Below, piece after piece: positions 2,401-15,674 of a stretch of DNA of 47,247 bases. The stretch's first letter is position 1; every line of letters starts with the position of its first letter. Under the pieces are notes generated by a model. That model did no database searches and was not told the DNA's origin. It saw only the letters and a program-made list of their open reading frames with translations. A program made the position numbers and the translations under genes. Origin of the DNA: a virus; the IMG/VR virus record IMGVR_UViG_3300040801_001422, positions 1 through 47,247 of that record. One strand, given 5' to 3'.

Positions 2401-2428
2401 GTAGCACTTAATTATTCGGAGACCGAAC

Positions 2429-2817: not shown

Positions 2818-2902
2818 CAATCCCATAGCATCGTCTTACCTCATAGGAGGGGCATTAGGCTCCGCACTCTCCCTGGCTGTAGCTGCAATTATCCTGCTAT
2901 GA
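2747..2902 (+). CDS. Tiny membrane protein overlapping the previous gene out of frame
   Basis: A 51-residue frame, almost entirely hydrophobic, with two candidate TM stretches: about 3-21 and about 31-51 (YLIGGALGSALSLAVAAIILL, Gly/Ala-rich with a GxxxG-type face). It begins inside the preceding gene in a different frame, with AAGG ten bases upstream of ATG 2747; an internal ATG (2798) would give a 34-residue version with one TM. It ends with a stop that overlaps the next ATG (ATGA). The coding call rests on frame length, TM character and coupling. Confidence 0.55.
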   Translation: MTSILLTTLTLQAAVLMIVGVASNNPIASSYLIGGALGSALSLAVAAIILL

Positions 2903-2982
2903 CTACTCTCCAAGAAATAGCACTAGGCGCTACCATAGGGCTAGTAGTCGCTGCAATCTTCACACTGATAATGGTCATATAA
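2899..2982 (+). CDS. 27-residue single-TM micropeptide
   Basis: Starts at the ATG overlapping the previous stop. The product MTTLQEIALGATIGLVVAAI plus seven more residues is one TM helix with a short acidic N-terminus. Its TM resembles that of the preceding 51-residue protein (small-residue-rich, ending in a run of I/L/V). It lies just upstream of promoter P2. It is shorter than most gene finders allow; the support is coupling and composition. Confidence 0.5.
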   Translation: MTTLQEIALGATIGLVVAAIFTLIMVI

Positions 2983-2986
2983 TAGG

Positions 2987-3015
2987 TTGACCTTTCCATC
3001 CAACTCTACTATAAT
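2987..3015 (+). promoter_or_regulatory. Sigma-70 promoter P2 (TTGACC-17-TATAAT)
   Basis: -35 TTGACC at 2987-2992, -10 TATAAT at 3010-3015, 17-base spacer beginning TTTCCATCC, followed by GTTTACA. It drives the gene at 3047. Confidence 0.9.
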
Positions 3016-3046
3016 GTTTACAAGCTGAACAAATGGAGCAAAGGAC

Positions 3047-3388
3047 ATGGAACAAAGATACTGGGTTAGCAACGGAAAACACGAAGCACTGGCTGCTACT
3101 CTTCGGGAAATGATTCCTGCGTCGGGTTCGGTACTGCGTCCTCGGAAAAACAAAGCCCTGGAGAAATTCCGCAAAGCCTGTAATTGCTACTACGATCTCT
3201 ACAATAACGGACTGATCAATCGTGCCAGGGAGTTCGCTGGCGTGTTTGGCATAGCATCGAGTCAATACAAATATACCATCCGCTATCCTAAGTTCGATTC
3301 GCATCTGTACACCCGAGTCGAAGCCAAGATGGACGAGATTGTTCTCGAGGCAGCCCTGGAACAAGGACTCATAAACATGGAAGATTAG
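3047..3388 (+). CDS. Hypothetical protein
   Basis: A 113-residue soluble, helix-rich protein with good ribosome site GGAGCAAAGGAC right before ATG 3047. It contains a basic segment (RPRKNKALEKFRKA, about 34-48), the phrase YYDLYNNGLINRA and an acidic C-terminus. It is a single-gene transcription unit between promoters P2 and P3. No motif identifies a function, and I recognise no family with confidence. Confidence 0.82.
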   Translation: MEQRYWVSNGKHEALAATLREMIPASGSVLRPRKNKALEKFRKACNCYYDLYNNGLINRAREFAGVFGIASSQYKYTIRYPKFDSHLYTRVEAKMDEIVLEAALEQGLINMED

Positions 3389-3391
3389 TGG

Positions 3392-3420
3392 TTGACCTTT
3401 CCACTCAACTTCCATATAAT
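3392..3420 (+). promoter_or_regulatory. Sigma-70 promoter P3 (TTGACC-17-TATAAT)
   Basis: -35 TTGACC at 3392-3397, -10 TATAAT at 3415-3420, spacer 17 beginning TTTCCACTC. It lies 27 bases upstream of cca and is its dedicated promoter. Confidence 0.9.
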
Positions 3421-3446
3421 ATATACATATTAAAGGAGTTGAGCAA

Positions 3447-4652
3447 ATGAATACATTTTTAGTCGGAGGCGCAGTACGAGACATGCTGCTTGGCCTCGAG
3501 CACAAAGACAAGGACTTCGTAGTCGTTGGCTCTACCCCTGCTGAAATGGAAGCCAGGGGCTTCAAGCAAGTAGGCGCTGACTTCCCCGTGTTCCTGTGCC
3601 CGGAGACCAAAGACGAGTTTGCCTTGGCCCGCACCGAGCGTAAGACAGGCAAAGGTCACACTGCATTCGTTTGCGATGCTAGTCCTGAAGTAACGCTGGA
3701 AGAAGACCTGATGCGTAGGGACCTCACTATCAACGCAATGGCACTGAACGACGAAGGCGAAGTAGTTGATCCCTTTGGCGGACAAGAAGATCTTGCGAAT
3801 GGTATCCTGCGTCACGTTAGTCCTGCGTTTGCTGAAGATCCTTTGCGGGTACTGCGAGTCGCACGGTTTGCTTCGAGGTTTCCAGAGTTCCGCATAGCTG
3901 CCGAGACTATGCTGCTGATGACAGAACTTGTCAAGGCTGGCGAGATAGCAACACTGACTGCCGAGCGTGTATGGCAGGAAATGAGCAAGGCACTGGTTGA
4001 GGCACAGCCCAGCAAGTTCTTCGAAGTACTGCGTGACTGTGGTGCGTTGAAGGTACTGTTGCCAGAGCTTGATGCCCTGCGCGGAGTTCCGCAGCCTGCA
4101 GCCCACCACCCGGAGATCGATACGTTTGTTCACGTGTTGCTGGCACTGGATCAAGCTGTCAAGATGGACGCCGACCTTGACGTTCGCTTCGCTGTACTGA
4201 TGCACGATCTGGGCAAAGGACTTAGCCCTGTAGAGACACTGCCCGCCCACCACGGACACGAGCAAGCAGGCGTGCCGCTGGTTGAAGCAGTATGCGATAG
4301 GCTGAAGGTTCCTAAGGCTACTCGCAGGTTGGCTCTTGCAGTGTGCGAGCATCACTTGCGGTGTCACAAGATACTGGACTCTCGTCCGGGCAAGGTGTTC
4401 AAACTGCTGATGGCACTGGACGGACTGCGTAGGCCAGAGATGGTTGAAAAGTTCGCCCAGGCATGTGAAGCGGATGCACGGGGTCGCACTGGACTCGAGG
4501 ATAGGCATTACCCACAGGCAGACAAGCTGAGAGCAGCACTGCCGTTGGTCAAAGCTGTTTCGGCACAGCCTTTAGTGGAGCGTGGTTTCACTGGGCTGAA
4601 GCTTGCAAAGATGCTGGAACAGGAACGTGTTCGGGCCCTTATAAATTTATAA
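3447..4652 (+). CDS. cca: CCA tRNA nucleotidyltransferase (bacterial class II, with HD domain)
   Basis: A 401-residue enzyme that adds or repairs the 3' CCA end of tRNAs using CTP and ATP. Motifs of class II nucleotidyltransferases are present: LVGGAVRD at 5-12, catalytic DKD at 21-23, RRDLTINAMA at 90-99 and EDPLRVLRVARFASR at 130-144. A C-terminal HD phosphohydrolase domain is intact (MHDLGKG with HD at 253-254, then HHGH), as in E. coli-type Cca, which has 2',3'-cyclic phosphodiesterase and phosphatase activities. The length matches E. coli Cca (412 aa) and similarity by eye is very high along the whole protein, so it was probably acquired from a gamma- or beta-proteobacterium. It starts at ATG 3447 after AAGGAG, alone behind promoter P3. 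No tRNA gene is visible here, so its substrates lie elsewhere in the phage genome or are host tRNAs. Confidence 0.97.
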   Translation: MNTFLVGGAVRDMLLGLEHKDKDFVVVGSTPAEMEARGFKQVGADFPVFLCPETKDEFALARTERKTGKGHTAFVCDASPEVTLEEDLMRRDLTINAMALNDEGEVVDPFGGQEDLANGILRHVSPAFAEDPLRVLRVARFASRFPEFRIAAETMLLMTELVKAGEIATLTAERVWQEMSKALVEAQPSKFFEVLRDCGALKVLLPELDALRGVPQPAAHHPEIDTFVHVLLALDQAVKMDADLDVRFAVLMHDLGKGLSPVETLPAHHGHEQAGVPLVEAVCDRLKVPKATRRLALAVCEHHLRCHKILDSRPGKVFKLLMALDGLRRPEMVEKFAQACEADARGRTGLEDRHYPQADKLRAALPLVKAVSAQPLVERGFTGLKLAKMLEQERVRALINL

Positions 4653-4659
4653 TAAGGGC
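4635..4659 (+). terminator. Inverted repeat at the 3' end of cca
   Basis: GCCCTTAT at 4635-4642 pairs with ATAAGGGC at 4652-4659 across a 9-base AT loop. It covers the cca stop codon and abuts the -35 box of promoter P4. It may stop readthrough into the next unit, but there is no T-run after it, so it is not a classical intrinsic terminator. Confidence 0.4.
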
Positions 4660-4687
4660 TTGACATTTCCTTCCAATCTGCTATAAT
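4660..4687 (+). promoter_or_regulatory. Sigma-70 promoter P4 (TTGACA-16-TATAAT)
   Basis: Perfect -35 TTGACA at 4660-4665 and -10 TATAAT at 4682-4687, 16-base spacer beginning TTTCCTTCC, followed by GTTTACATACTAAA. It drives the three-gene operon 4717-5578. Confidence 0.9.
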
Positions 4688-4716
4688 GTTTACATACTAA
4701 ACAAGCGGAGCAAGAC

Positions 4717-4947
4717 ATGAGCTACTACGATGAGACCATAGTAAAGCAACTGGGCAAAACCCAAGCAGAACTGTCCCGCTTGTTTGATACTGCTCAAGAG
4801 GCCGCACACGAACTGGCGCGCATGAAAGCCGCAATCCAGGAAGGGCAAAGGCTTGCAGTGATCGCAGCATCTACGCTCTACTCCGAAGAACAGAGGAAAG
4901 AAGCAAGCGAGAGCCTGGTGCGCCTGATGCTGGTAACGTCAGTATGA
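4717..4947 (+). CDS. Hypothetical helical (coiled-coil) protein
   Basis: A 76-residue protein, nearly all predicted helix with heptad-like spacing of hydrophobic residues from about 8 to 70 (KQLGKTQAELSRLF, QEAAHELARMKAAI). It has no hydrophobic segment. The ribosome site GGAGCAAGAC precedes ATG 4717. It is the first gene of an operon whose other two genes encode membrane proteins, so it may be a soluble partner of them (inference from coupling: its stop overlaps the next ATG). Confidence 0.8.
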   Translation: MSYYDETIVKQLGKTQAELSRLFDTAQEAAHELARMKAAIQEGQRLAVIAASTLYSEEQRKEASESLVRLMLVTSV

Positions 4948-5147
4948 AGTTTGCTGTATTCATCGTAGCATCCTTGCTGGGTATATTCTTCCTAAGCCTG
5001 GCTTTCCTTGGACTGGGCGTACTCATAGGAGTTTCGTCCTTTGCAGTATCAAACCCAGTTCTACTAATTCAAGTTAGTGGATCTGCTGCGGTTGCATCGT
5101 TTGTGGTAGCCTTTGTGTCGTTTGTGACCCTCAAGAGAATACCATGA
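4944..5147 (+). CDS. Small membrane protein with two TM segments
   Basis: A 67-residue hydrophobic protein: TM1 about 3-32 (VFIVASLLGIFFLSLAFLGL and onward) and TM2 about 40-61, ending in a short basic tail (TLKRIP). Its start overlaps the upstream stop and its stop overlaps the next start, both as ATGA, giving a tightly coupled three-gene unit with 4717-4947 and 5144-5578. The function is unknown. Confidence 0.78.
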   Translation: MKFAVFIVASLLGIFFLSLAFLGLGVLIGVSSFAVSNPVLLIQVSGSAAVASFVVAFVSFVTLKRIP

Positions 5148-5578
5148 AGTTTTGGCCCATATTAGTAGCAGCCCATCGCAACACTGTCTCCTCTGTAAAG
5201 AACTCAGGTAACAGGTTCAAGGAAGCACTGAATAACACAGTCGAGGCAATGTACGAATTACTGGTGGGTGTGTTTGGAACAATCATATGGCCCATACTTG
5301 CCATCTTCGCATTACTCTTTCCAGTTATTGCATTAGTGACATGGCCTGCACTAGTAACGATCAGAGCCCTTTACATATATGTCAGAGCTTGGAAAGGTTA
5401 CTATAACACATTGAAGTCTCTGAACTTACCCAACACACCCACTGGCATATACGACATAGAAAGGTACGAGAAGAACCTAAAAGACCTCGACAAGGCATAC
5501 GGTGTGCGATATCCGAGAGCAGAAAAGGCACTCGAAGCCATGAAAATACAGGCAATATTAGCCAACAAAAAGTATTGA
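5144..5578 (+). CDS. Membrane protein, hypothetical
   Basis: A 144-residue protein: amphipathic N-terminal part (about 1-38), a central hydrophobic block (about 39-86) able to form two or three TM passes, and a basic C-terminal cytoplasmic domain (about 87-144). The stop codon TGA lies inside the -35 box of the next promoter (TTGACA at 5575-5580), so no space separates the operons. The family is unknown. Confidence 0.8.
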   Translation: MKFWPILVAAHRNTVSSVKNSGNRFKEALNNTVEAMYELLVGVFGTIIWPILAIFALLFPVIALVTWPALVTIRALYIYVRAWKGYYNTLKSLNLPNTPTGIYDIERYEKNLKDLDKAYGVRYPRAEKALEAMKIQAILANKKY

Positions 5579-5603
5579 CACTTCCATCCTTTTCCCATAC
5601 AAT
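5575..5603 (+). promoter_or_regulatory. Sigma-70 promoter P5 (TTGACA-17-TACAAT)
   Basis: -35 TTGACA at 5575-5580 contains the stop codon of the upstream gene; -10 TACAAT at 5598-5603; spacer 17 beginning CTTCCATCC; followed by GTACACATACTAAA, close to the downstream element of P4 and P6. Confidence 0.87.
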
Positions 5604-5635
5604 GTACACATACTAAAGCAAACGGGAAAAAGAAC

Positions 5636-6223
5636 ATGAACTCAGTAGAAGCTAGCAACATCGTATGTAAGCTGGAAGCCGTAAAGGGCAACAGCAACAT
5701 CAACGTGGCAAACATCGTCAAAGCCCTTAACGGTGTAGAGGCTACTACATTTGCCACACTGACCCAGGCAAGCCCCGTTACACTGTCTGCTGCTAACAAG
5801 GGTAAGCGCATCTACAAAGTCACCAAGCAAAACGTAACCCTGTGCAATAGTGACGCCGGACTGTACACCAACAAAGTACGCCGCGAAGCCGACGCAGACT
5901 TTACTGCTCTCCCGAGTCACTACGCTATGGTCAACGACTCCTACAGTGTATGCTCACTTATAAGCAACCCTGCAAAGCACTACCTGCGCGCCATTGTTAA
6001 TAACTGCATCAGCTCAGTATACTACGATGCAGACGCAGACGTTATCCGCTCCAAAGAAGAAGTGGCAAAGCTCTGCACTCCTGCTGCGGCCAAGAAGATG
6101 CTGGACACTTCCTCTGAGACATATGTGGCCCACGCTGATGTGACCCATAGCGTGATCATCCGCACCTTTGCGCTGGAGAACATATACAGCATCAACATCA
6201 ACAAGCAATCCCTCACAGTATAA
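5636..6223 (+). CDS. Hypothetical protein
   Basis: A 195-residue soluble protein. The N-terminal half (about 1-70) looks like a helical bundle rich in Asn, Ala and Val; a basic loop (NKGKRIYKVTKQN) and a C-terminal mixed region follow. There is no signal peptide, TM segment or catalytic motif. The upstream purine stretch GGGAAAAAGAAC supports ATG 5636. It is followed after ten bases by a second gene with its own AAGGAG, so the two form one operon under promoter P5. Confidence 0.82.
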   Translation: MNSVEASNIVCKLEAVKGNSNINVANIVKALNGVEATTFATLTQASPVTLSAANKGKRIYKVTKQNVTLCNSDAGLYTNKVRREADADFTALPSHYAMVNDSYSVCSLISNPAKHYLRAIVNNCISSVYYDADADVIRSKEEVAKLCTPAAAKKMLDTSSETYVAHADVTHSVIIRTFALENIYSININKQSLTV

Positions 6224-6233
6224 GGAGCTCAAC

Positions 6234-6476
6234 ATGAACCTTAAAGAAGCACTCCAGTCAGCATCATACGTTAGCATCCTGCAGAATGATTACTACTATC
6301 GCATTGATGCAGCGACCCCAGATACAATGGTGACCGGTGAAGAAGATGCATGCCTGTATGTACACGATGTAGAGCATGGCGAGGACTATGAGTACACATG
6401 GGACGAGCTTGTAGAGATGCAGGAAGCAGGTGACCTGGAACTGTTCATGTTTGCAACCATCGAAATTAGTGGTTGA
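6234..6476 (+). CDS. Hypothetical acidic protein
   Basis: An 80-residue, strongly acidic protein (GEEDACLYVHDVEHGEDYEY). The start at 6234 is fixed by AAGGAG at 6222-6227, which overlaps the stop of the preceding gene. An acidic, DNA-mimic-like composition is often seen in small early phage inhibitors, but here that is only a compositional remark. Its TGA stop is embedded in the -35 box of promoter P6. Confidence 0.8.
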   Translation: MNLKEALQSASYVSILQNDYYYRIDAATPDTMVTGEEDACLYVHDVEHGEDYEYTWDELVEMQEAGDLELFMFATIEISG

Positions 6477-6501
6477 CTTTCCATCCATACTCCCTTACAA
6501 T
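6473..6501 (+). promoter_or_regulatory. Sigma-70 promoter P6 (TTGACT-17-TACAAT)
   Basis: -35 TTGACT at 6473-6478 overlapping an upstream stop codon, -10 TACAAT at 6496-6501, spacer 17 containing TTCCATCC, followed by GTGTACATACTAAA. Confidence 0.87.
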
Positions 6502-6534
6502 GTGTACATACTAAAGCGTAAGGGAGTAAGGAAC

Positions 6535-6762
6535 ATGGCACTAGAACTTAAGGCAGTAAAGGGAACGAATGGCAGGGCAGACATTAGCCTGACTAGGTTC
6601 TCGGGTGGTACGGAGCGTGGTGCTATGCTACAGCTGACCCGTATGACAGGTGCTGATGCTAGCGTGATCAATCTTACAAAGGCAGAGGCCGCTGAGCTTG
6701 CTGTAGCGTTGGTACAGTTTATGGCAGGTACGCCAGAATTTGCTATTCCCGAAATGGCATAG
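6535..6762 (+). CDS. Hypothetical protein
   Basis: A 75-residue protein starting at ATG 6535 behind AGTAAGGAAC. The first half reads as beta strands (SLTRFSGGTERGAMLQLTRM), the second as helices (NLTKAEAAELAVALVQFMAG), a layout common in small phage proteins of unknown role. It is the only gene behind promoter P6 and is followed by a hairpin, so it forms a separate transcription unit. Confidence 0.82.
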   Translation: MALELKAVKGTNGRADISLTRFSGGTERGAMLQLTRMTGADASVINLTKAEAAELAVALVQFMAGTPEFAIPEMA

Positions 6763-6776
6763 CACGATAGACGATA

Positions 6777-6807
6777 GAAGTCAACCAGAAAGAAAATGGT
6801 TGACTTC
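6777..6807 (+). terminator. Hairpin after the 6535-6762 gene, probable terminator
   Basis: GAAGTCAACC at 6777-6786 pairs perfectly with GGTTGACTTC at 6798-6807 (10 bp, loop of 11), followed by TTAAAAT. It ends the run of promoter-driven operons and starts the non-coding region. The T-tract is weak, so Rho independence is uncertain. Confidence 0.55.
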
Positions 6808-6892
6808 TTAAAATCCCACGGAGCCGACTGTGTGCTGTAGATGGTGGAGATCTTAGGGTGCGGGCAATACGCGCAGCAATTTTTTGTCTCCG

Positions 6893-6958
6893 CTGTATAT
6901 AGACCTCCACTACTGTATATAGACCTCCACTAAACCACTGTTGTATATAGACCTCCAC
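6893..6958. repeat. Short repeat array carrying ACCTCC
   Basis: The 20-bp unit CTGTATATAGACCTCCACTA occurs twice in perfect tandem (6893-6912, 6913-6932), and its 17-bp core occurs a third time at 6942-6958. Each copy contains ACCTCC on the plus strand, the anti-Shine-Dalgarno sequence; read on the minus strand it is GGAGGT followed by TATATA. Confidence 0.85.
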
Positions 6959-7157
6959 CGCAACACTCCCCCACTCTCATATAACTCTTCCCCCACTCAT
7001 AGAACTCTGAAAATAGTTTCCAGACCTCACAGATATGGACTATGCGAAATTTTTTTGATAAAATTTTTTATGGTGCTGTATATAAGGACTGATTCTCTCC
7101 TATAGCATCCCCTCCAACGGCATACGCGCATACCGTATAATAGGATTAGATAAGATA

Positions 7158-7226
7158 TAACACCTTTGTGTTACTCTGTGTGCATAATACACATATGGCT
7201 TGTACAAAGTAACAAATTGTGTTACT
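7158..7226. repeat. Three closely spaced stem-loops with a shared 10-bp direct repeat
   Basis: Stem 1: TAACAC/GTGTTA with CTTT loop (7158-7173). Stem 2: TGTGT/ACACA (7077+100 onward: 7177-7193). Stem 3: AGTAACA/TGTTACT (7208-7226). TTGTGTTACT occurs at 7166-7175 and 7217-7226, 51 bp apart. Confidence 0.6.
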
Positions 7227-7390
7227 ATAGGCTAAATAAGGGTGAGGTTACATTAATGCCTCATAACTGCGTCGAGTGTACTCCACTCTGAACAACTCTG
7301 CTATATAGTAGGGAGGGGGTTGTTTAAATACATATATAATGTCTGCGGCGACGGCGCGAGCGGCGGCAAAAACTAACCGGAGATCCCGAA

Positions 7391-7561
7391 ATGTTGAGAA
7401 ATATCTTTTTAGGCGCGTTACTTGTAGTGATGGTATGTGTTACTGCATTTGTTTTAATTACCCAGTCGTTCTACTTGGCTGCTTTTACTGCCTGGACTTT
7501 GGCTACTGTTGCATTTACTGCGGTGGAGCCTGTTAGACTATCCGATGAGGATGGGAAATAA
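7391..7561 (+). CDS. Small membrane protein, first of a tandem paralogous pair
   Basis: A 56-residue protein starting at ATG 7391 with GGAG at 7379-7382, eight bases upstream. It is almost wholly hydrophobic (LRNIFLGALLVVMVCVTAFV, then FYLAAFTAWTLATVAFTA), two TM segments, with an acidic tail (LSDEDGK). The next gene has the same pattern: NIFLG near the N-terminus, two TM stretches, then FTAxxP and an acidic tail. A frame at 7339-7536 overlaps it but is Cys/Tyr-rich, has no ribosome site and is rejected. Confidence 0.75.
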   Translation: MLRNIFLGALLVVMVCVTAFVLITQSFYLAAFTAWTLATVAFTAVEPVRLSDEDGK

Positions 7562-7562
7562 C

Positions 7563-7745
7563 ATGAAGAAGGCCATATTACAAAATATCTTTCTTGGAAT
7601 ACTGATGCTAACAGTATTCGTTGTTGCGCCTGTTATGGCAGTATGCTTTAGTGCATATACCCTTGCCATGTGGTGCTGGATTGCGGCGGCTGTCGGCTTT
7701 ACTGCAACTCACCCGATAGACGAGGAATATAACAGCCCTAGTTAA
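7563..7745 (+). CDS. Small membrane protein, second of the tandem pair
   Basis: A 60-residue protein: MKKAILQNIFLGILMLTVFV, a second TM stretch (about 26-46), then FTATHPIDEEYNSPS. It aligns with the 56-residue neighbour at NIFLG, at both TM segments and at the FTA-x-x-P junction. ATG 7563 lies two bases after the neighbour's stop; ATG 7551 in the same frame is an alternative start with GAGG closer. The function is unknown; position just upstream of outer-membrane protein genes suggests an envelope role (inference). Confidence 0.75.
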   Translation: MKKAILQNIFLGILMLTVFVVAPVMAVCFSAYTLAMWCWIAAAVGFTATHPIDEEYNSPS

Positions 7746-7770
7746 TGGAAATCATTTTCATGTGTTTTAA

Positions 7771-7777
7771 CTAAATA
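7771..7777 (+). promoter_or_regulatory. Candidate late promoter CTAAATA before the barrel genes
   Basis: CTAAATA at 7771-7777 resembles the GATAAATA late motif at six of seven positions of the ATAAATA core. A transcript from it would begin just inside the 5' arm of the leader hairpin at 7781-7791. It is a weaker match than the other sites. Confidence 0.35.
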
Positions 7778-7780
7778 CAA

Positions 7781-7818
7781 TAGGAGTAAACGTTGGGGTT
7801 TACTCCTAGGACTAGGAG
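7781..7818 (+). promoter_or_regulatory. Leader with two alternative hairpins controlling the barrel-gene ribosome site
   Basis: TAGGAGTAAAC (7781-7791) pairs with GTTTACTCCTA (7798-7808), an 11-bp stem with loop GTTGGG. The 3' arm's CTCCTA (7803-7808) can instead pair with TAGGAG (7813-7818), which contains the ribosome binding site of the gene at 7825. The two stems exclude each other: the first leaves the site free, the second hides it. This is visible base complementarity; regulation is inferred. Confidence 0.6.
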
Positions 7819-7824
7819 AGATAC

Positions 7825-8478
7825 ATGAAAAGTTACGCAATCCTTCTGGCGGGCATATTCTTGCTTGCTTCTTTCAACACACACGCACTAGAACCCATGA
7901 TCGAAGTTGGACCCTTGTATAACTTCTATACGGGCGATGTAGACAGCAATGTCGCTGGTGTGAAATTAAACCTCGGTGTAAAAGACCGACCTCTGTACGT
8001 ATGGAGCTCATACGAACAGGACCTTAATCCTACTGTAAACGGAACGTCGATGGGCGATGTATCCATTTTGGGTGTGGGACTAGGCGTCCGTAAGAACTGG
8101 GATAAGTTCAGTATCTTTATTGAGGGCGGCTATGGTATGGTTGATTATTCACCAGATCAAAACGCCATTGACAATACAGCATACGATTATCTTGTGGCAA
8201 ATCATGCTGCAGGTACAAGACTCATTCCTACTAAATGCCCGGAGCCCGAGTGCTACGTTAGTACAAACGACTACGATAATGGTTGGATGGGCCGGGTTGG
8301 TGCAGGCTACGACATTATGGATCACGTTCGTTTAACTGCTGCTTATCGGTGGATGGAAGCAGAACACTACATTGCCATCTGGGACGAAGAGCGATACGCA
8401 AATGATAAGGGCTATTGGCACGAACCTAAAACGCAAGACTTCGGAGCATTCGAACTCGGCGTAATGTTTACTTGGTAG
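7825..8478 (+). CDS. Outer-membrane beta-barrel protein (porin-like), copy 1
   Basis: A 217-residue protein with a classical signal peptide (KSYAILLAGIFLLASFNTHA, cleavage about 22). The mature part has alternating-residue strands rich in Gly and aromatics (SIFIEGGYG, VRLTAAYRWME) and ends in MFTW; a terminal aromatic residue is the usual BAM targeting signal. Size fits an eight-stranded OmpX/Lom/Ail-like barrel. A putative outer loop carries two Cys (CPEPEC) that could form a disulfide; copy 2 has a Cys pair at the matching place. ATG 7825 follows AGGAG by six bases. Phage-encoded barrels such as Lom are known in lambdoid phages; roles proposed for such proteins include altering host surface or blocking receptors, but this one's role is unknown. 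Confidence 0.85.
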   Translation: MKSYAILLAGIFLLASFNTHALEPMIEVGPLYNFYTGDVDSNVAGVKLNLGVKDRPLYVWSSYEQDLNPTVNGTSMGDVSILGVGLGVRKNWDKFSIFIEGGYGMVDYSPDQNAIDNTAYDYLVANHAAGTRLIPTKCPEPECYVSTNDYDNGWMGRVGAGYDIMDHVRLTAAYRWMEAEHYIAIWDEERYANDKGYWHEPKTQDFGAFELGVMFTW

Positions 8479-8486
8479 GGGGAGAT

Positions 8487-9170
8487 ATGAGAAACATAAT
8501 ACTAGCAGGGTTATTCCTGTTATTTACAGTGAGCAACACCCAGGCATGGGAAATAGATCCAAGAGTGGAAGTTGGCGGACAGGCACTTATATATTCCGAC
8601 GATTCGGACGCAGAATCTAACTGGGGCGGCAAGATTGTGTTGGGGGACAAGCGTTTTCCGGTATACTTTTGGGGTTCTATAGATAATCCCGAAGGCAACA
8701 TTCTTGCCCAAGAGATTGCGAGTCTTGAAGTTATGGGGGCTGGTCTAGGATTCGACTACAAAATAGATAAGGAAATTAGTATCTTTATCGAAGCAGGCTA
8801 CGGTCAAGTTAGCTCTAGTATCGATAAGCCCATTCTCGACGAGATGGTATATACCTACATTGTCAATGGATGGACACCGGAGGAATTAGAAGCATCTAAT
8901 ATTGCATGTGCATATAATTCGCCGACCAACGATAAGGAGTGCTACAAAGGCGCTGCTGACATTAAAGGTGCGCCAATGGCAAGAATCGGCATAGCATACC
9001 AGGCGTGGGAACATGTTAAGGTAACTGCTGGATACCGTTATATGCGTTCCGATGTCGATCTAACCATGACTGACGACGGTAACCGTTCAAACAACACCGG
9101 CGCAAGCTACACAGAAACTGCTGAATTCAACCTCGACGCATTTGAAATCGGCGTAATGTTTACTTGGTAA
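8487..9170 (+). CDS. Outer-membrane beta-barrel protein (porin-like), copy 2
   Basis: A 227-residue paralogue of the preceding gene, eight bases downstream, starting at ATG 8487 behind GGGGGAGAT. It has a signal peptide (RNIILAGLFLLFTVSNTQA, cleavage after about residue 20) and matching strands SIFIEAGYG and VKVTAGYRYMR; it ends AFEIGVMFTW, almost identical to AFELGVMFTW in copy 1. Loops differ strongly in length and sequence while strands are kept, the normal pattern for barrels facing variable surfaces. The two Cys in the matching loop (ACAY...ECYK) are retained. Both genes lie downstream of the alternative-hairpin leader and are probably co-transcribed. Confidence 0.85.
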   Translation: MRNIILAGLFLLFTVSNTQAWEIDPRVEVGGQALIYSDDSDAESNWGGKIVLGDKRFPVYFWGSIDNPEGNILAQEIASLEVMGAGLGFDYKIDKEISIFIEAGYGQVSSSIDKPILDEMVYTYIVNGWTPEELEASNIACAYNSPTNDKECYKGAADIKGAPMARIGIAYQAWEHVKVTAGYRYMRSDVDLTMTDDGNRSNNTGASYTETAEFNLDAFEIGVMFTW

Positions 9171-9177
9171 TTTTTAC

Positions 9178-9206
9178 TTGACTTAACTCGTACCTCCTGC
9201 TATACT
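9178..9206 (+). promoter_or_regulatory. Sigma-70 promoter P7 (TTGACT-17-TATACT)
   Basis: -35 TTGACT at 9178-9183, -10 TATACT at 9201-9206, 17-base spacer. It lacks the TTTCCATCC element of P1-P6. It starts the operon 9233-11720. Confidence 0.8.
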
Positions 9207-9232
9207 GTATTTTAATAGATATAGGAGTAGGT

Positions 9233-9322
9233 ATGAGTTGTCCAGATAACCTCGAGTCGAGCCTAAAGCTCACTGCATCTCGTTCCTTTTTAATAATCAA
9301 CGCACCGAAGGGGAATACCTAA
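9233..9322 (+). CDS. 29-residue leader ORF
   Basis: A short frame beginning at ATG 9233 with ATAGGAG at 9221-9227 and ending with a TAA that overlaps the next ATG (TAATG). The product is polar with one Cys near the N-terminus and a short hydrophobic stretch (SFLIINA). It is the first frame after promoter P7. It could be a real small protein or simply a translated leader that delivers ribosomes to the next gene. Confidence 0.5.
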   Translation: MSCPDNLESSLKLTASRSFLIINAPKGNT

Positions 9323-9558
9323 TGGACGACGGCACACGGCTGCTCAAGCGTCTTATCTTTGCTAAACAGATAATGATTGCTATCACTACTGCGTTCGGTA
9401 TATTCGAAGCATATTTCTTATTGCTCGGTATAGTTACATCCAACACTTCACTAATAATAGTAAGCTCTGTGTTCTTGCTGTGGATGTCGTATGTTGCTGC
9501 AAAGGACAAACTAATATTAGATGGAGCTAAGGAATTACTAAAACAACGAGGTGGCTAA
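9322..9558 (+). CDS. Small membrane protein with two TM segments
   Basis: A 78-residue protein: basic N-terminus, TM1 about 14-36, TM2 about 42-60, then a charged tail (KDKLILDGAKELLKQRGG) probably in the cytoplasm. It is coupled at both ends by TAATG overlaps. The family is unknown. Confidence 0.78.
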   Translation: MDDGTRLLKRLIFAKQIMIAITTAFGIFEAYFLLLGIVTSNTSLIIVSSVFLLWMSYVAAKDKLILDGAKELLKQRGG

Positions 9559-9830
9559 TGAATCCGAAAACTCGACAACATATTCGATCCTTGTCTTTTT
9601 TTGTTGTTTTCCTCCTAGGGGTGCTGTTTGGAATTTTTACTCGACCCACTGATCAATATCAGATTGCTATTGATTCGTACGAGCGCCTCCAGGAAAGCAT
9701 TGTGTACGTAGGATCCGAGTGCGCGAAGCCGCAAACCGGCGAAGTTGTGATTACTGGCAAGGACATAATCAATGCGGTAAAGGGCAAGCCCTTGCAATTC
9801 GTAGTAGCTACTAGTGTATCAAGTGATTAA
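9558..9830 (+). CDS. Single-TM membrane-anchored protein
   Basis: A 90-residue protein with a basic N-terminus (NPKTRQHIR), one TM segment at about 11-28 (LSFFVVFLLGVLFGIF), and a soluble domain of about 60 residues with one Cys. By the positive-inside rule the soluble part is likely periplasmic. Its ATG overlaps the previous stop. The general layout recalls o-spanin or Rz-type proteins, but there is no other lysis gene here to support that. Confidence 0.78.
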   Translation: MNPKTRQHIRSLSFFVVFLLGVLFGIFTRPTDQYQIAIDSYERLQESIVYVGSECAKPQTGEVVITGKDIINAVKGKPLQFVVATSVSSD

Positions 9831-10137
9831 CCCGACTAAGAATTTTACGCATCCTCGCCTAAATCTCTCTGGGATCGCTACAAAAAGGAAAGAAGAGAAG
9901 GATAAGTTCGAGAAGACGTGGCACCGCAAATGGGCGTTTATCCCTGTGATGTTAAGCAGTGGCAAGTGGATATGTTGGAATCGGTATTGGGTCAGATATC
10001 AGGCTGAGATTTTGCTGCCTAAGCCTTTGCAGCCTCGCCGCATGTCTCAGTATTTAACTCCATCGTTCAGGAAAGGGAAAATGATTGAGCGCATAGACGA
10101 CTACGAGATGACCGTAAGGAAGTTGCAGGAATGTTAG
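9823..10137 (+). CDS. Hypothetical protein, paralogue of the next gene
   Basis: A 104-residue basic protein probably starting at GTG 9823, which overlaps the end of the previous gene; GTG 9814 is an alternative. Neither has a clear ribosome site, so reinitiation after the upstream stop is likely. It contains IPVMLSSGKWICWNRYWVR; the next protein has LTAVLSSGKRVWLTTVWVR in the same position, and both end with a xTVRKL/LLVRKL motif. The SSGKxxW core looks like a small beta unit; the function is unknown. Confidence 0.7.
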   Translation: MINPTKNFTHPRLNLSGIATKRKEEKDKFEKTWHRKWAFIPVMLSSGKWICWNRYWVRYQAEILLPKPLQPRRMSQYLTPSFRKGKMIERIDDYEMTVRKLQEC

Positions 10138-10397
10138 ATGAGTACAAGTGGAATCAGTCGGTCTGGGAACAGAAGCGGGTACTTACTGCTGTGTTGTCTA
10201 GCGGAAAACGAGTGTGGTTAACGACTGTATGGGTTAGGGTATACATGGCTGCTACCCGTGATTTTACTTGCAAACACTCATCGATATATGTAAAAGAAAT
10301 ACTCGAAACAGTAAGTAGCGAAGAGCTACTTGTGCGAAAATTAGATGGCACAGAAAACTTGCCATGGCACATGCGTCTTAGGATGATTCAATTATGA
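10131..10397 (+). CDS. Hypothetical protein, paralogue of the previous gene
   Basis: An 88-residue protein starting at ATG 10131, inside the end of the previous gene, with TAAGGAAG about ten bases upstream. It shares the VLSSGK-x-x-W-x-x-x-WVR core and the LVRKL motif with the preceding gene, so these are tandem diverged copies. It has an additional C-terminal extension (NLPWHMRLRMIQL). Its stop overlaps the next start (ATGA). Confidence 0.75.
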   Translation: MLDEYKWNQSVWEQKRVLTAVLSSGKRVWLTTVWVRVYMAATRDFTCKHSSIYVKEILETVSSEELLVRKLDGTENLPWHMRLRMIQL

Positions 10398-10708
10398 TAT
10401 ATACTGCAAGAGTTCCGATGAGCGATATACTCCAAGGGACTTCGGTGTTTGATTCGAAGAAAATGAAGTCGGTGTTTGCAGAGTTTGGCGGCAAGGAATG
10501 CTACATACACAAAGATGAATTACTTGTACACTTCGACAATGAAGAGGATTTGGTTGCCTGGCAGTTGCGTTGGACGCCTACGCTGATACATAACACATGT
10601 CTGGAGTTATTAATAGCCGAAATAGAAGACATGCAGGAAGAAAATCCGGAGATACTCAGGGATACTAGGCTTATTACAGATATGATCAGGGCGAGCATAC
10701 GAAAATGA
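10394..10708 (+). CDS. Hypothetical protein
   Basis: A 104-residue soluble, acidic protein. The first half reads as mixed alpha/beta (GGKECYIHKDELLVHFDNEEDL), the second as helix (TCLELLIAEIEDMQEENPEIL). Its ATG overlaps the previous stop and its stop overlaps the next ATG, so it belongs to the same coupled operon. The family is unknown. Confidence 0.78.
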   Translation: MIYTARVPMSDILQGTSVFDSKKMKSVFAEFGGKECYIHKDELLVHFDNEEDLVAWQLRWTPTLIHNTCLELLIAEIEDMQEENPEILRDTRLITDMIRASIRK

Positions 10709-11139
10709 AAGGTACATGGAAAGGTATAAAGACGAGCTATCCTGCGAACTCTATGTCTGTTGTGCGTAAATTTCTAATGGACAATAAATACAAAGGGTTC
10801 CGGCTAGGCCCGTACATGAGGGCGTCTGGCGATAGCAATGTCATGGTGTACACCGACGAGCATAATTGGCTGATGTTTGTACTGAAGTACGGCAAAGAAA
10901 TGGACGATACCGTGGCGCAGTTAATTAGTAACCGACGGTGGCAGCACGGATGGGACCTTGCAGGCAAAGGATTTAAGAAAGGCGAGGCGGCGGTGTTCTT
11001 AGCCGGGCGATCTCTCGGTAAATCAAAAGTTCAGGAGTTATATTTAAATGAAATACTTAAAGACGGAAATAGCAGCAACAGAACGGTATATGCAAATTTT
11101 GAAAGAAGTCCTCATCGACCTCGGGTACACAAAATTTAG
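10705..11139 (+). CDS. Hypothetical protein with a Walker-A-like motif
   Basis: A 144-residue basic protein. Near the C-terminus it has AVFLAGRSLGKSKV (about 92-105), which fits the P-loop pattern [AG]xxxxGK[ST] preceded by a hydrophobic strand. However, fewer than 40 residues follow, too few for a full P-loop NTPase, and no Walker B is seen. It may be a fragment, a partner subunit or a chance match. Its last 92 bases overlap the next gene in another frame, an unusually long overlap for this genome, where four-base overlaps are the rule. Confidence 0.7.
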   Translation: MKGTWKGIKTSYPANSMSVVRKFLMDNKYKGFRLGPYMRASGDSNVMVYTDEHNWLMFVLKYGKEMDDTVAQLISNRRWQHGWDLAGKGFKKGEAAVFLAGRSLGKSKVQELYLNEILKDGNSSNRTVYANFERSPHRPRVHKI

Positions 11140-11338
11140 TATCTCAACCTCAGACGGCATGGCTAAAGATTTGTTCGGAAACACATTAACATATGACACC
11201 GTTCTGTGTATCGACATGGAAGAAGAGGATGCAGTAATATTTCGTGTCAAACAGGACATGAACGATCTTAATAATCGTGTTATTAGGCAATACGCCGAAA
11301 CGTTCGATAGCTGGACCGATGCTACCTGGATCGGATAA
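11048..11338 (+). CDS. Hypothetical acidic protein overlapping the previous gene
   Basis: A 96-residue protein starting at ATG 11048 with a strong AGGAG at 11033-11037, both inside the previous gene. It is helix (about 1-25), then mixed alpha/beta, with an acidic cluster MEEEDAV. The strong ribosome site supports the start even though it forces a 92-base overlap. The family is unknown. Confidence 0.75.
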   Translation: MKYLKTEIAATERYMQILKEVLIDLGYTKFSISTSDGMAKDLFGNTLTYDTVLCIDMEEEDAVIFRVKQDMNDLNNRVIRQYAETFDSWTDATWIG

Positions 11339-11351
11339 ACGAGAGTTTAAT

Positions 11352-11720
11352 ATGTCCGAGATACTTGAAAATGTCTTTCTGGTGGTGTTGCTACTGCTCC
11401 TCGGGCCGGTTATATGTATTCTTCAACCGATTCGTACGTTTAAGTTTTTCCATCGGTACATATTAGTGACCGAAATTGACACAAAAATACCTTACCTAGA
11501 ATTATACAAAGATACGATATTAGATATTCTCGAAGAATGCAATCTAAGACAGCATCTGTATACAGAAGACCTACATGCGTGGCCATCAGAAGGGGACGAA
11601 TCCGATAACATCATCCTGCATTTCAGAGGAAAAGACGCGGCAACAATGTACACACTTGCAATAGGAAATACGCTACGAGATCGTATAAAAAAGCGAGGAG
11701 TTTATATACACACGGCGTAG
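11352..11720 (+). CDS. Membrane-anchored hypothetical protein
   Basis: A 122-residue protein starting at ATG 11352 after GAGAG; the frame is open further upstream, but those starts lie inside the preceding gene. One TM segment at about 7-26 (NVFLVVLLLLLGPVICIL) is followed by a soluble alpha/beta domain of about 90 residues with basic C-terminus (RDRIKKRG). It is the last gene of the P7 operon and convergent with the tail block; I see no clear terminator in the 50-base gap. Confidence 0.75.
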   Translation: MSEILENVFLVVLLLLLGPVICILQPIRTFKFFHRYILVTEIDTKIPYLELYKDTILDILEECNLRQHLYTEDLHAWPSEGDESDNIILHFRGKDAATMYTLAIGNTLRDRIKKRGVYIHTA

Positions 11721-11770
11721 CTTCGTCTTGGTGCTATTAGGTTCGGATATTGTTACAATTTAGGTGAATT

Positions 11771-12202
11771 TTAGAGGATCTTAGCTATAATATGAGTCTG
11801 TTCTTTGTAGTCTTTAAATAGCTTTGCCCATCCTTTTCTACCACATATACGCATTGCAGCAATACCCTGTTCTTTAGCTAATTCTTCGAACTGTTTCATT
11901 AGCTCTATACCCCAGTCGGTGAAGTTAACTCCGCCAAGATATTCTATATCAAGTATTTTACATTTGGGAGCTTGCTGAACCTTAGTAACAAATGCACCCA
12001 CTGCATAATCTGATTTAGTAACTACCCAGAGCTGGGAAACTCCGGTTTTGCAAATGATTCTAAGATCGTCTAAGGAAAGTAACCCTAGTGTGTCGTCTAA
12101 TGCTGGTTCTAAAAAATGAGAAACTTTGCTCCATACATCTTCAAAGTGTTCTGGTACTACTGTGCCTAGTACGTAATCTTCGTACTGAATTTGATCATTC
12201 AA
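11771..12202 (-). CDS. GNAT-like acetyltransferase-fold protein
   Basis: A 143-residue protein at the downstream end of the late tail block. The central strand pair LWVVTKSDYAVGAFVTKV, a following strand LDIEYLGG and then a helix and IAAMRICGRKGWAKLFKDY match the core of GNAT folds as seen in virion-associated phage proteins, where R-x-x-GRxGW near the end is common. The acetyl-CoA loop (Q/RxxGxG/A) is not clearly present, so catalytic activity is doubtful. Its start overlaps the stop of the gene upstream (12199-12405). Confidence 0.65.
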   Translation of the reverse strand: MNDQIQYEDYVLGTVVPEHFEDVWSKVSHFLEPALDDTLGLLSLDDLRIICKTGVSQLWVVTKSDYAVGAFVTKVQQAPKCKILDIEYLGGVNFTDWGIELMKQFEELAKEQGIAAMRICGRKGWAKLFKDYKEQTHIIAKIL

Positions 12203-12405
12203 TTTTTAATACCTTTAGCGGTGTGTATTGATACTCCTCTAACGAATTTAAGTAGGGTCACTAACAGTGGCCGCAGGTCATCCATGTCTTGGATACTGTT
12301 GACATAGTCGTCGATTTGCTGGTCGCTGTAGTCTGTGATATCGTGTGCTAGCGCATCGATTATTTTATCCTGCTCGGGTGTAGTTTGTGCTGCAAAATCT
12401 GTCAT
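12199..12405 (-). CDS. Small hypothetical protein, tail region
   Basis: A 68-residue helical, acidic protein (TPEQDKIIDALAHDITDYSDQQIDDYV) ending in a basic tail (TAKGIKN). It overlaps its neighbours on both sides by ATGA-type junctions, so it is part of the late tail transcript. Size, acidity and position after fibre genes would suit a fibre assembly chaperone, but that is inference only. Confidence 0.72.
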   Translation of the reverse strand: MTDFAAQTTPEQDKIIDALAHDITDYSDQQIDDYVNSIQDMDDLRPLLVTLLKFVRGVSIHTAKGIKN

Positions 12406-12836
12406 ACAAATGTTACCTCAATTATAGTAGAAAGACAAGTCTCCGGAGTAAAAGAAATTTTACCGGTACCCTTTAGTTTACTAGTTATCGAAACAATTCC
12501 GTCGTTTACAAACCCACTCGAGTGGCCGTCTGGTAGATCACAGCTAACGTGACAACCCGATGGCACATTAGTTATTAATATCGGAGTAGTGCCGTCTGCC
12601 GGCGCAGATGTATTCTGAACATTAATTGCAAGAGGCTGTCTTTTTACTGGGCGATGTGGATTGGCTGTAATATCTATCTTACACCCCGAGCAACATTCGT
12701 ACTCCCCTGTTATCTCTAAATATGCTTGGCCAGGTTCAAGCGGGGTAAGGTTGGATTCGAGTCCCATTGTTTTACCTAATATCTGTCCGGTTGATGTGTT
12801 ATATAAAAACCACTTCCCTACTTTATCTGTTTCCAT
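12402..12836 (-). CDS. Tail-associated protein with Ig-like C-terminal domain
   Basis: A 144-residue protein. The N-terminal part (about 1-60) includes KWFLYNTSTGQILG and a Cys cluster (ECCSGC). The second part (about 68-144) has the strand pattern of a bacterial Ig-like domain: ITNVPSGCHVSCDL, GIVSITSKLKGTGKISF, ending IIEVTFV. Such domains decorate phage tails and heads and bind surfaces weakly. It starts after AAGGGA nine bases downstream of the big fibre gene's stop. Confidence 0.72.
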   Translation of the reverse strand: METDKVGKWFLYNTSTGQILGKTMGLESNLTPLEPGQAYLEITGEYECCSGCKIDITANPHRPVKRQPLAINVQNTSAPADGTTPILITNVPSGCHVSCDLPDGHSSGFVNDGIVSITSKLKGTGKISFTPETCLSTIIEVTFV

Positions 12837-12845
12837 GATCTTCCC

Positions 12846-15674
12846 TTATTTAAACATCGGCAACGACCACATCGCTGCGTTATACACTGATAGTGTGCTG
12901 CCGCCTAATCTCATTTGCAGGTTGTATGTATACGTTCCCGGTCCTCGGTTATCCATATATACATAGCTTGCAAAGTTAGAAAAGTTCTTTAAGTTATACG
13001 TTCCGCTATATTCTCGAGTCCACAGTGTAGTGGAGCCACGCAATAGTTTAAAATCTAATTCTCTTGCATTACCACCGGTAGCATCCATGATAACCGCCCA
13101 GCTTATCATCATGTTTGCTGTTCCGCCACTGCCAAGTGTAGGAACAGTTACAGTAACAGTTGCGATTGTTTTGTACGTAGTATTTAATGTCTGTATAAAC
13201 GATCGCTCGTTAAATGTCGGAGCCGATATGTTATTGTTTTTAATCTGTACGGTACTTATTGCTAGCTCAGCAATCTGTGCATTCCCAACCTGTGCAGACC
13301 CAATCTTAGCAGTAGTTATCGCAGCATTTGCGATTTTAGCTGTTGTTATGACACCGTTTGCTATATTAGCCTGTGACGCAATAATTTGGTTTGTTCCAAC
13401 ACTAGTTGCAGTAATTGCGCCGGCTGCAATTTTAGCAGAAGTTATCGAATTAGCAGCAAGTTTGGGTGTCGAGATTGCGCCATCTGCAATGACAATGTTA
13501 CCACCTGCTGTTAACTGATCTGTTCTGATGTTACTAGCTTGTACAGTATTAGCTTGTATCATGCTACCGGAAATGTAACCACCCTTAATGGTCACTACGC
13601 CTCCAGCACTATTAGGTGTTCCCACCTGAATTGTATTCATCTGCAAGCTATCGCCTGTGATGCTGTTGGCTTGTATCTGCGTAGATGTAATTGTGTTTGC
13701 TGCAATCTTGCTAGCAACAACAGAGTTAGCTGCAAGTTTATCAGTGCCGATTGCACCAGCAGTAATGTTATTTGAGAAAATAGCGTCCGTTGCTATTTTA
13801 CCAGCAATAACTGCTCCGGCACTTATTTTACCAGATGTAATTGCGCTGTCTTCGATCTTAGTTGATATTACTGCTCCGTCGGCAATTTTTCCAGCAAGCA
13901 CAGAAGCTTCGGCCAACTGCAATGCAGTAATAGACCCGGGTGGGATATCTAAGATGCTACCAATCGGCACAGCCTGTACACGAGCACTGAAGACGCTCTG
14001 ATTGCCACTGGTATCGACGGCCGCTGTCCACGCATAGTATGTTACACCAACTGACAACCCACCAGCAAAATAATTCCCCACTGCCGACTGTCCTACTAGA
14101 TCTGTTTCTTGTGGTTCCGACGATGCAACGGTTGATATGTATATTTTTGTATATGCATAGTCTAGGTCCGATGGATTTGTCCATGTTAGTGATATTGCGC
14201 CGAGGCCTGCGTCTGCAAGCATGTCAGTTGGCGCCGCCGGAGGAACTTCGTCACCCGGAGATGTACCCTGAACAGTAAGACCCCAGTTGCCCACTAGCCC
14301 TTGTGTATTACGAGCTCTAATTCTAACTTCATATAGCGTATTAGTGAATCCTACAAATTCCCAGAATAGTGTCTCAGCCGGTACAATAGGAGTATCCTGA
14401 TATACTACAAACGATCCAGTGGGATCGTACTGACTAATCTCTAATAGATAATCTCCGGCTCCAGCAACTGCTGTCCAATCTACTCTAACTAATACAGAGG
14501 TTTTATCTGGCTCGATTAATGTAAAGGTTAGTGTTGCTTGCGGGCCATCGTCGGGCGGCGGCTCGACTAATACAATTTCCTGTGTGTTGCTGTTAAACAG
14601 AGACACCCAGGTTCCGAACTGTCTTCCGTATACTTCTCCGGGTGGGCTATTAGGTACTTCGAGAACATCACCACCACCACCACCTGTGCCAGCGTCTGCC
14701 CAGTATGTTGTTTTGTTAGACCCGAAGGTCGATAATACCTGCCCTATTGTTCCGTCTGTTCCTGGTAGTTGGTAGCCGCCGACTCTACCAATGTGGTCGT
14801 TAGCTGTAACTGTGCCAGAGACAGTAGTGTCGCCTTGTATCGTGCTAGAGTTAACCCAGAAGGTTCCGTCGAATGTCAGTAGTTGGCCGGTTTCGGTTGG
14901 TGCAGTAATAGTTACATCACTTAGATTACCCAAGCTACCACCGCCCCCTGTGCCACTAAAGTCAAATTCGATAACTTGTGAACTCGGATTCCAGTTGATT
15001 ATAATACCTGATGTCGGTGCTGCTGTTAGTGTCCTAAACTCTAAAACACCACCGTTAGCTTCTGCAAATACTTCTGCGCCACCGCCGATGTTTGCTGCAT
15101 TGCCCGATGCAGAGTCGATAAATTCTAACCCAGTTTGTGCAGCATTAACCGCAACTATTTTTCCCTGTTGACCGACATAAGTATTTGGGGTATCGTCTAA
15201 CTCTAAGAATGAACCACCACCGGTTCCGCCACCGGAGCTTGCAAGTGTAATAGTGCCGTTGTTGTTATCGATTATTGTCATATTTGCGCCGGGCAATAGC
15301 GTCTTAAATGGTAAGTCTACGCCTTCCTTGGGAAGTGCAAGTCCAACACCTAAGCCAACATTACTCGAAGTATTCGCCTGGCCACTATTTTCAATGTCAG
15401 ACATCTCGATCCAGGCATCTACCTGATTGTCGCTTGTGCCTTTATTAAGACGCAACTGTTTAGCTGATGTGTCGTACCATAGTTGCCCCGGCACAGGATT
15501 CCTAGGCGGAGTAGCACTTGCAAAATTAGCAAGCATGTTTACCTGTGTAGTGGATATTATCTGAGCATAATTCGGATAATTTATACCAACGAGATCAACA
15601 CTCGTCTGAGTGTTTAATTGGCCGTCTGGTACAATTATAACTTGCCCGTTCGATCTTGTTACAACATATGACAT
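12846..15674 (-). CDS. Large tail fibre/tip protein with FN3 domains and repeat stalk
   Basis: A 942-residue protein. Order: an N-terminal attachment domain (about 1-80, NYxQII..TTQVNMLxNFA, PxxGQLWYDT) shared with the next upstream protein; two copies of a roughly 50-residue module ending in FKTLLPGA / FRTLTAAP and Gly-rich linkers (about 105-250); two fibronectin type III-like domains (about 375-575); a long repeat stalk (about 585-835) of short units such as ITSAKIAAGAI; and a C-terminal globular domain (about 845-942) that probably contacts the host. The stalk repeats are typical of trimeric phage fibre shafts. It lies with the 490-residue paralogue downstream of the giant baseplate gene, as expected for fibres. 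Confidence 0.88.
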   Translation of the reverse strand: MSYVVTRSNGQVIIVPDGQLNTQTSVDLVGINYPNYAQIISTTQVNMLANFASATPPRNPVPGQLWYDTSAKQLRLNKGTSDNQVDAWIEMSDIENSGQANTSSNVGLGVGLALPKEGVDLPFKTLLPGANMTIIDNNNGTITLASSGGGTGGGSFLELDDTPNTYVGQQGKIVAVNAAQTGLEFIDSASGNAANIGGGAEVFAEANGGVLEFRTLTAAPTSGIIINWNPSSQVIEFDFSGTGGGGSLGNLSDVTITAPTETGQLLTFDGTFWVNSSTIQGDTTVSGTVTANDHIGRVGGYQLPGTDGTIGQVLSTFGSNKTTYWADAGTGGGGGDVLEVPNSPPGEVYGRQFGTWVSLFNSNTQEIVLVEPPPDDGPQATLTFTLIEPDKTSVLVRVDWTAVAGAGDYLLEISQYDPTGSFVVYQDTPIVPAETLFWEFVGFTNTLYEVRIRARNTQGLVGNWGLTVQGTSPGDEVPPAAPTDMLADAGLGAISLTWTNPSDLDYAYTKIYISTVASSEPQETDLVGQSAVGNYFAGGLSVGVTYYAWTAAVDTSGNQSVFSARVQAVPIGSILDIPPGSITALQLAEASVLAGKIADGAVISTKIEDSAITSGKISAGAVIAGKIATDAIFSNNITAGAIGTDKLAANSVVASKIAANTITSTQIQANSITGDSLQMNTIQVGTPNSAGGVVTIKGGYISGSMIQANTVQASNIRTDQLTAGGNIVIADGAISTPKLAANSITSAKIAAGAITATSVGTNQIIASQANIANGVITTAKIANAAITTAKIGSAQVGNAQIAELAISTVQIKNNNISAPTFNERSFIQTLNTTYKTIATVTVTVPTLGSGGTANMMISWAVIMDATGGNARELDFKLLRGSTTLWTREYSGTYNLKNFSNFASYVYMDNRGPGTYTYNLQMRLGGSTLSVYNAAMWSLPMFK

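Follow-up and report, generated by a model that had tools for sequence, protein, structure and literature searches.

The analyzed window is a 47,247-base stretch of an IMG/VR virus record. Its left arm carries two adjacent plus-strand genes, here called barrel genes 1 and 2, both of which very probably encode outer-membrane β-barrels. The two genes are separated by 8 bases, and both starts are preceded by a purine-rich ribosome-binding site. In barrel gene 2 this site lies in front of the ATG at 8487, and the listed open reading frame begins earlier, at the TTG at 8472. The products are full-length paralogs that share 36% identity and 52% positives in a pairwise comparison (E 2e-35). The features of the region are collected in Table 1.

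Table 1. Positions of the barrel gene pair and of neighboring features in the window
Feature	Position	Strand	Description
Small hydrophobic protein, 56 aa	7391..7561	+	Two membrane segments by eye; paralog of the 7563..7745 gene
Small protein, 60 aa	7563..7745	+	Two predicted membrane segments; paralog of the 7391..7561 gene
11-bp hairpin	7781..7808	+	Immediately 5' of the barrel gene 1 ribosome-binding site; -16 kcal/mol, z -3.5, 0/200 shuffles
Barrel gene 1	7825..8478	+	217 aa; residues 1-21 form the signal peptide; eight strands, placed by transfer from the barrel 2 model; Cys138/Cys143 in the long loop; GVMFTW at the C terminus
Barrel gene 2	8487..9170	+	227 aa counted from the ATG; residues 1-20 form the signal peptide; eight strands predicted; Cys141/Cys152 within a partly helical loop of 55 residues; GVMFTW at the C terminus
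Sigma-70-type promoter-like site, TTGACT-17-TATACT	9178..9206	+	Directly 3' of barrel gene 2, ahead of the genes that follow
78-aa protein	9322..9558	+	Two predicted membrane segments
90-aa protein	9558..9830	+	One N-terminal membrane segment
Tail-fiber protein	12846..15674	-	PHROGs tail-fiber families; close to where the convergent tail/baseplate cluster (12.8-38.4 kb) ends

Each protein begins with a Sec-type signal peptide, MKSYAILLAGIFLLASFNTHA in barrel 1 and MRNIILAGLFLLFTVSNTQA in barrel 2, recognized by eye and by a home-made filter. The C termini read AFELGVMFTW and AFEIGVMFTW. They form a β-signal with a terminal aromatic residue and with hydrophobic residues at positions -3, -5, -7, and -9. 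The signal peptides and the common GVMFTW end had been pointed out in the original prediction, and inspection finds both. Neither protein has a lipobox, and the cysteine that follows the signal peptide in Llp/Cor-type lipoproteins is absent from both. Each barrel contains exactly two cysteines, all located in the same long predicted extracellular loop. The second cysteine is aligned between the paralogs and the first is not, the spacing being 5 positions in barrel 1 and 11 in barrel 2. A cysteine pair in a matching loop had been noted in the original prediction.

The home-made filter combines a signal peptide with a β-signal. Of 1,227 stop-to-stop frames between 100 and 600 aa long, taken from the window and four related contigs, 5 pass it: the two barrel genes, an evident barrel in the relative G007, and two frames that look like noise. 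The barrel features are therefore not a matter of chance, given how few frames pass. As a control, the filter recovers lambda Lom (1 of 24 frames). It fails to recover the barrel of Vibrio phage nt-1 named in BFVD and so misses some barrels.

Structural models were computed with AlphaFold2 from an input alignment of the two barrel sequences only. The model of mature barrel 2 is fair, with a pLDDT of 71 and a pTM of 0.62. It fits eight strands. On one side they are joined by turns of 2-4 residues; the loops on the opposite side measure 5, 14, 55, and 10 residues. The model of the barrel 1 precursor is poor (pLDDT 50, pTM 0.48) and renders part of the signal peptide as a strand. Eight amphipathic strands close into a barrel in the barrel 2 model; for barrel 1, the same arrangement is suggested by the paralogy together with the weak model. 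The alternation of hydrophobicity along the strands exceeds that of shuffled sequences in barrel 2 (p 0.011) and, with strands transferred from the barrel 2 model, in barrel 1 (p 0.031).

Foldseek searches of the PDB place OmpW on top for both models, with E values of 7e-7 and 6.5e-6. The fit is loose, with a TM-score of about 0.5 and an rmsd of 7-8. OmpW and OprG are within the top five matches of both models, and the larger barrels FadL, TodX, and OpcA also appear. In VIA-align 2, barrel 2 reaches a Z score of 13.3 with OmpA (rmsd 2.6 over 121 aligned residues), a score shared by a designed barrel and by OprF. Barrel 1 reaches a Z score of 13.6 with NspA (rmsd 3.5 over 148 aligned residues), a score also reached by OprF, a Legionella porin, and OmpA. 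Avidins and other soluble barrels rank lower, at Z scores of 8 to 9. The predicted barrel fold is well supported by the models and the structure comparison, the barrel 1 model being weak. The structure prediction that had been proposed as a check thus returns an eight-strand model for barrel 2 and barrel-like matches for both proteins. The tandem pair itself is confirmed as two real, adjacent, paralogous open reading frames of barrel-like character.

No family profile matches the barrels above its cut-off. Pfam PF13505 (OMP_b-brl) matches barrel 1 at 26.2 bits (E 1.1e-5) and barrel 2 at 19.3 bits (E 0.0013), both below the gathering cut-off of 28.7 bits. PF06316 (Ail_Lom) and phrog_108 match neither barrel at an E limit of 10, a search in which most weak matches are lost to the HMMER filters; for Lom, the E values with these profiles are 1.1e-53 and 7.5e-74, respectively. 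The comparison with Ail/Lom put forward earlier accordingly yields no profile match. The OmpW/OmpX family is matched by fold only, at 6-17% identity, and no family profile exceeds its cut-off.

The two paralogs differ in their loops mainly by insertion, as gap columns are concentrated there: loops hold 17 of them and strands a single one, with strand limits taken from the barrel 2 model. Identity is 41% in strands (44 of 107 aligned columns) and 31% in extracellular loops (22 of 72), a difference that is not significant (Fisher p 0.16). An earlier partition based on the barrel 1 model gave 45/107 for strands and 22/71 for loops, with 17 and 3 gap columns. Faster loop substitution between the two barrels is thus weakly indicated. 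The loops had been called very different, which is right for gaps and not significant for identity. Loop divergence is likewise a weak sign of specialized targets: the insertions lie mostly in loops, but the excess of substitutions is not significant.

The barrel genes lie among small membrane proteins and outside the virion-gene cluster. The 56- and 60-aa proteins encoded directly upstream are paralogous, with a local alignment score of 89 against a shuffle mean of 25.5 (sd 5.1, maximum 56, 2000 shuffles). Two duplicated envelope pairs are therefore located side by side. Upstream of this unit, some 630 bases (6763-7390) hold no convincing gene. A terminator-like site is found at 6858, ahead of the barrel unit, and a 16-nt repeat, GTATATAGACCTCCAC, is present in three copies (6895, 6915, and 6943), with no further exact copy within the window. 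The hairpin in front of barrel gene 1 is possibly a 5' mRNA stabilizer or a minus-strand terminator. The barrel unit points towards the convergent tail-fiber cluster, and the nearest gene with a tail match, at 12846, lies at a distance of 3.7 kb, beyond several small genes.

The plus strand of the left arm contains eight sigma-70-type sites that match at 10 or more of 12 positions, compared with a mean of 1.3 and a maximum of 5 in 200 first-order Markov resamples; the minus strand contains one. At a looser threshold of 9/12, positions 1-13,000 hold 22 such sites against 21.2 expected, which is no excess. Between 6501 and 9178 there is neither a sigma-70 site with at least 10/12 matches nor a copy of GATAAATA, and only weaker 9/12 matches occur, for example at 7036-7064. 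The element GATAAATA may be a late motif, a candidate role assumed from its resemblance to the T4 late promoter. It occurs at five sites, 38450, 32294, and 17949 on the minus strand and 39796 and 2393 on the plus strand, at least three of them just upstream of genes. Its count is at chance level, the shuffle mean being 2.6 and 10 of 100 shuffles reaching five or more.

Several database searches were made for homologs of the barrels. A tblastn search of 50,697 phages at E 1 returned no homolog of either barrel, and blastn with the 7-12 kb part of the window found nothing. Pattern scans of viral contigs with single proteins, which require exact short peptides, gave no barrel homolog, and a two-sequence profile had no match in the viral or genome contigs scanned. 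A degenerate pattern, IFIE[GA]GYG, hit one viral contig and was dropped, since the site lies outside any listed barrel-like frame. One search of the PDB by sequence was empty; the other produced three matches at chance level (E 0.49 to 1). PHROGs gave no match, and NCBIfam gave only weak matches far below the cut-offs.

Of 80 related viral contigs, 50 were searched with a two-barrel profile (A1), and none matched; in stretches from all 80 it matched solely the window's own copies. Recovery of both genes from the window's own record is the only positive control for this profile, and distant homologs may escape it. Among bacterial genomes, A1 matched 0 of 15, 0 of 369 in the class of a gammaproteobacterial MAG, and 1 of 398 in a phylum-wide set (E 3.3e-4). 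The single match was rejected as a different and larger barrel-like protein of 449 aa, which resembles a FadL-type transporter. PF13505 gave one weak match each in G007 and G038 among 49 relatives. PF13505 and the home-made filter, methods that both miss some barrels, detected no barrel in PA5oct, and PF13505 and the filters did not locate the BFVD barrel of Vibrio phage nt-1. In the databases searched, the barrel pair thus appears as orphan sequences, and distant homologs may have been missed.

The late sigma factor, baseplate, and SbcC-like genes of the contig are of T4 type. The nearest annotated relatives, however, are jumbo phages of the PA5oct group, with a late sigma factor 54% identical; PA5oct is classified in the family Arenbergviridae. 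Relatives in IMG/VR share up to 68% identity in the best late sigma segment, among the best 80 of 591. Judged by these sequence relationships, the record is a fragment of a jumbo phage related to PA5oct, and the label of a T4-like lytic phage in the original prediction applies only broadly.

From about 15.7 to 47 kb, the window is largely collinear with four larger relatives (G001, G002, G007, and G017). A 3,383-aa protein encoded in the tail/baseplate cluster (17996-28147, minus strand) is matched in all four, with a best match of 37-47% identity. The left arm (1-12 kb) has a single weak match among them, at 26% in G007. In G001, G002, and G007, other genes occupy the place after the tail-fiber genes, some of them glycan- or sugar-like by eye. 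The contig of G017, the closest relative, stops 2.4 kb past its tail-fiber-like gene, so that the corresponding arm is not visible. The collinear right part, the nearly unmatched left arm, and the other genes found at this place in three relatives suggest that the left arm is probably accessory. The arm also contains a CCA-adding tRNA nucleotidyltransferase gene (3447-4652) with a GC content of 55%, compared with 43% for the contig. The enzyme is most like those of Gammaproteobacteria, at 57% identity over nearly the full length for the top match and up to 60% over part, and Betaproteobacteria are also among the matches listed. The gammaproteobacterial likeness may be a weak hint at the host.

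Analogy and gene context favor receptor masking, that is, superinfection exclusion, as the best reading of the barrel pair. The barrels would be made by the phage in an infected Gram-negative cell, exported by Sec, folded by BAM, and inserted into the outer membrane of that cell. The four loops would be displayed outside; the third is long, and its two cysteines probably form a disulfide that closes it. They may mask, bind, or crowd a receptor, and the altered cell surface would reduce adsorption of other phages or of the phage's own progeny. The duplicated pair would serve two targets or two host receptors. Taken as a whole, this mechanism is tentative, and we put its probability somewhat below even.

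Exclusion is the most economical use in the light of phage precedents, in which outer-membrane-directed proteins are encoded beside receptor-binding genes (lom after J, and the lipoproteins of T5 and BF23). The promoter-rich arm at the stricter threshold, the small membrane neighbors, and the position outside the virion cluster also count in its favor. Against it stand the 3.7 kb to the nearest gene with a tail match, the vanishing promoter excess at the looser threshold, and the stretch around the barrel genes free of strong promoters and of GATAAATA. The loose Foldseek fits, the low pLDDT of barrel 1, and the non-significant loop substitution weigh in the same direction. The precedents themselves are imperfect: passages of PMC4198210 credit Lom with adhesion rather than exclusion, and T5 Llp, in passages of PMC9586334, is a lipoprotein that acts from the periplasm and not a barrel. 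A bolder version, in which the small-membrane-protein pair and the barrel pair form an "envelope takeover" cassette that acts together across the envelope, each barrel being matched to a different phage receptor as a two-target shield near the tail-fiber locus, is highly unlikely.

The top-five ranking of OmpW and OprG for both models, and the 385-kb size reached by one relative, agree with a role in envelope support or in uptake while a jumbo-phage infection runs its long course. The barrels might then stabilize the outer membrane or form narrow channels, as OmpX/OmpW-like proteins do. A fold match alone does not confer a function, however, and this role leaves the duplication with loop insertions unexplained; we regard it as unlikely. 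Still less probable is adhesion or long-term conversion, in which infected cells would adhere, through the loops, to surfaces or to neighbors. Its model is Lom, a phage outer-membrane protein encoded beside the tail gene J, for which an adhesion role is reported in passages of PMC4198210. The barrels have no sequence relation to Lom, and no lysogeny gene is found among the proteins examined from this fragmentary record.

The tandem 56- and 60-aa pair and the small membrane proteins at 9322-9830 could also be read as parts of a lysis cassette, with the upstream pair as holins and the barrels weakening the outer membrane. The downstream genes, however, have their own promoter-like site, and the scan of nine plus nine neighbors in the window detected no endolysin or spanin match. 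We rank this possibility low, as a rather improbable one. Incorporation of the barrels into the virion ranks low as well and has a close to negligible probability, as the signal peptides, the barrel fold, and the location outside the structural cluster all speak against it and no supporting point was found. Receptor masking thus remains the preferred reading.

Phage-encoded outer-membrane barrels are a known kind of protein, as exemplified by Lom and many BFVD entries. Lambda Lom (PF06316, phrog_108) resembles the window barrels in being a phage-encoded, small outer-membrane protein with a signal peptide and a fold of the eight-strand barrel family. The lom gene lies directly after the receptor-binding tail gene J and is single at its locus, unlike the barrel pair. 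Lom belongs to a temperate phage, and its sequence has no detectable relation to those of the barrels.

Phages T5 and BF23 offer a different parallel. According to passages of PMC8624392 and PMC9586334, a receptor-blocking lipoprotein gene adjoins the receptor-binding gene in these phages. T5 Llp and Cor are described there as phage proteins directed to the outer membrane, as is predicted for the barrels, with llp beside the gene of the receptor-binding protein; they are lipoproteins and not barrels. Llp, with 61 residues in the modeled structure, binds FhuA from the periplasm in the account excerpted from PMC9586334. Methylophage Melnitz, in passages of PMC9004378, also encodes an outer-membrane barrel, CsgG, which is a curli secretion channel with the partner CsgF, unlike the small eight-strand barrels described here. 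The bacterial proteins OmpW, OmpA, OmpX, NspA, and OprF have a fold in common with the window barrels, at about 6-17% identity.

Likenesses in fold are also found among viral models. Foldseek matches seven BFVD entries at E 0.001 or better, several of which come from uncultured phages and are named outer-membrane barrels or porins; more named phages appear at weaker E values. Barrels of Vibrio phage nt-1 (R9TIU5), Synechococcus phage S-CBWM1 (A0A3G1L3F6), and an uncultured Caudovirales phage (A0A6J5QAM2) have a similar fold, at 10-14% identity, TM-scores of 0.36-0.43, and E values of 8.5e-5 to 0.027. S-CBWM1 encodes, at L241 4523-5767, a 156-aa hypothetical protein (PF13505 E 0.41) beside a rare-lipoprotein-A-like gene. 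It has the same length as the S-CBWM1 entry named an outer-membrane barrel in BFVD. In the same wider phage group, G007 (385 kb) encodes a 148-aa barrel with a signal peptide and a β-signal (L084 1501-1944, minus strand). This is a single gene that scores 27.8 bits with Porin_4 (cut-off 27), has no match to the A1 profile, and lies about 75 kb from the tail-fiber-like genes of G007 (222-224 kb).

The titles and abstract openings listed, drawn mostly from outside subscription journals, contained nothing on paired phage-encoded outer-membrane barrels. Term searches in the jumbo-phage review PMC13282480, in PMC12487901, and in the superinfection-exclusion review PMC11436027 turned up nothing about outer-membrane barrels of phages. 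An outer-membrane barrel is the name or prediction given to many phage proteins, and for most of those among the BFVD matches listed no function is known. Single phage-encoded outer-membrane barrels are thus already known; what is unusual here is a diverged tandem pair, of orphan sequence, that adjoins a second duplicated membrane pair. Two diverged barrels on one scaffold provide a natural comparison of what the loops bind and of whether competing phages are excluded, which bears on phage-phage competition and host range.
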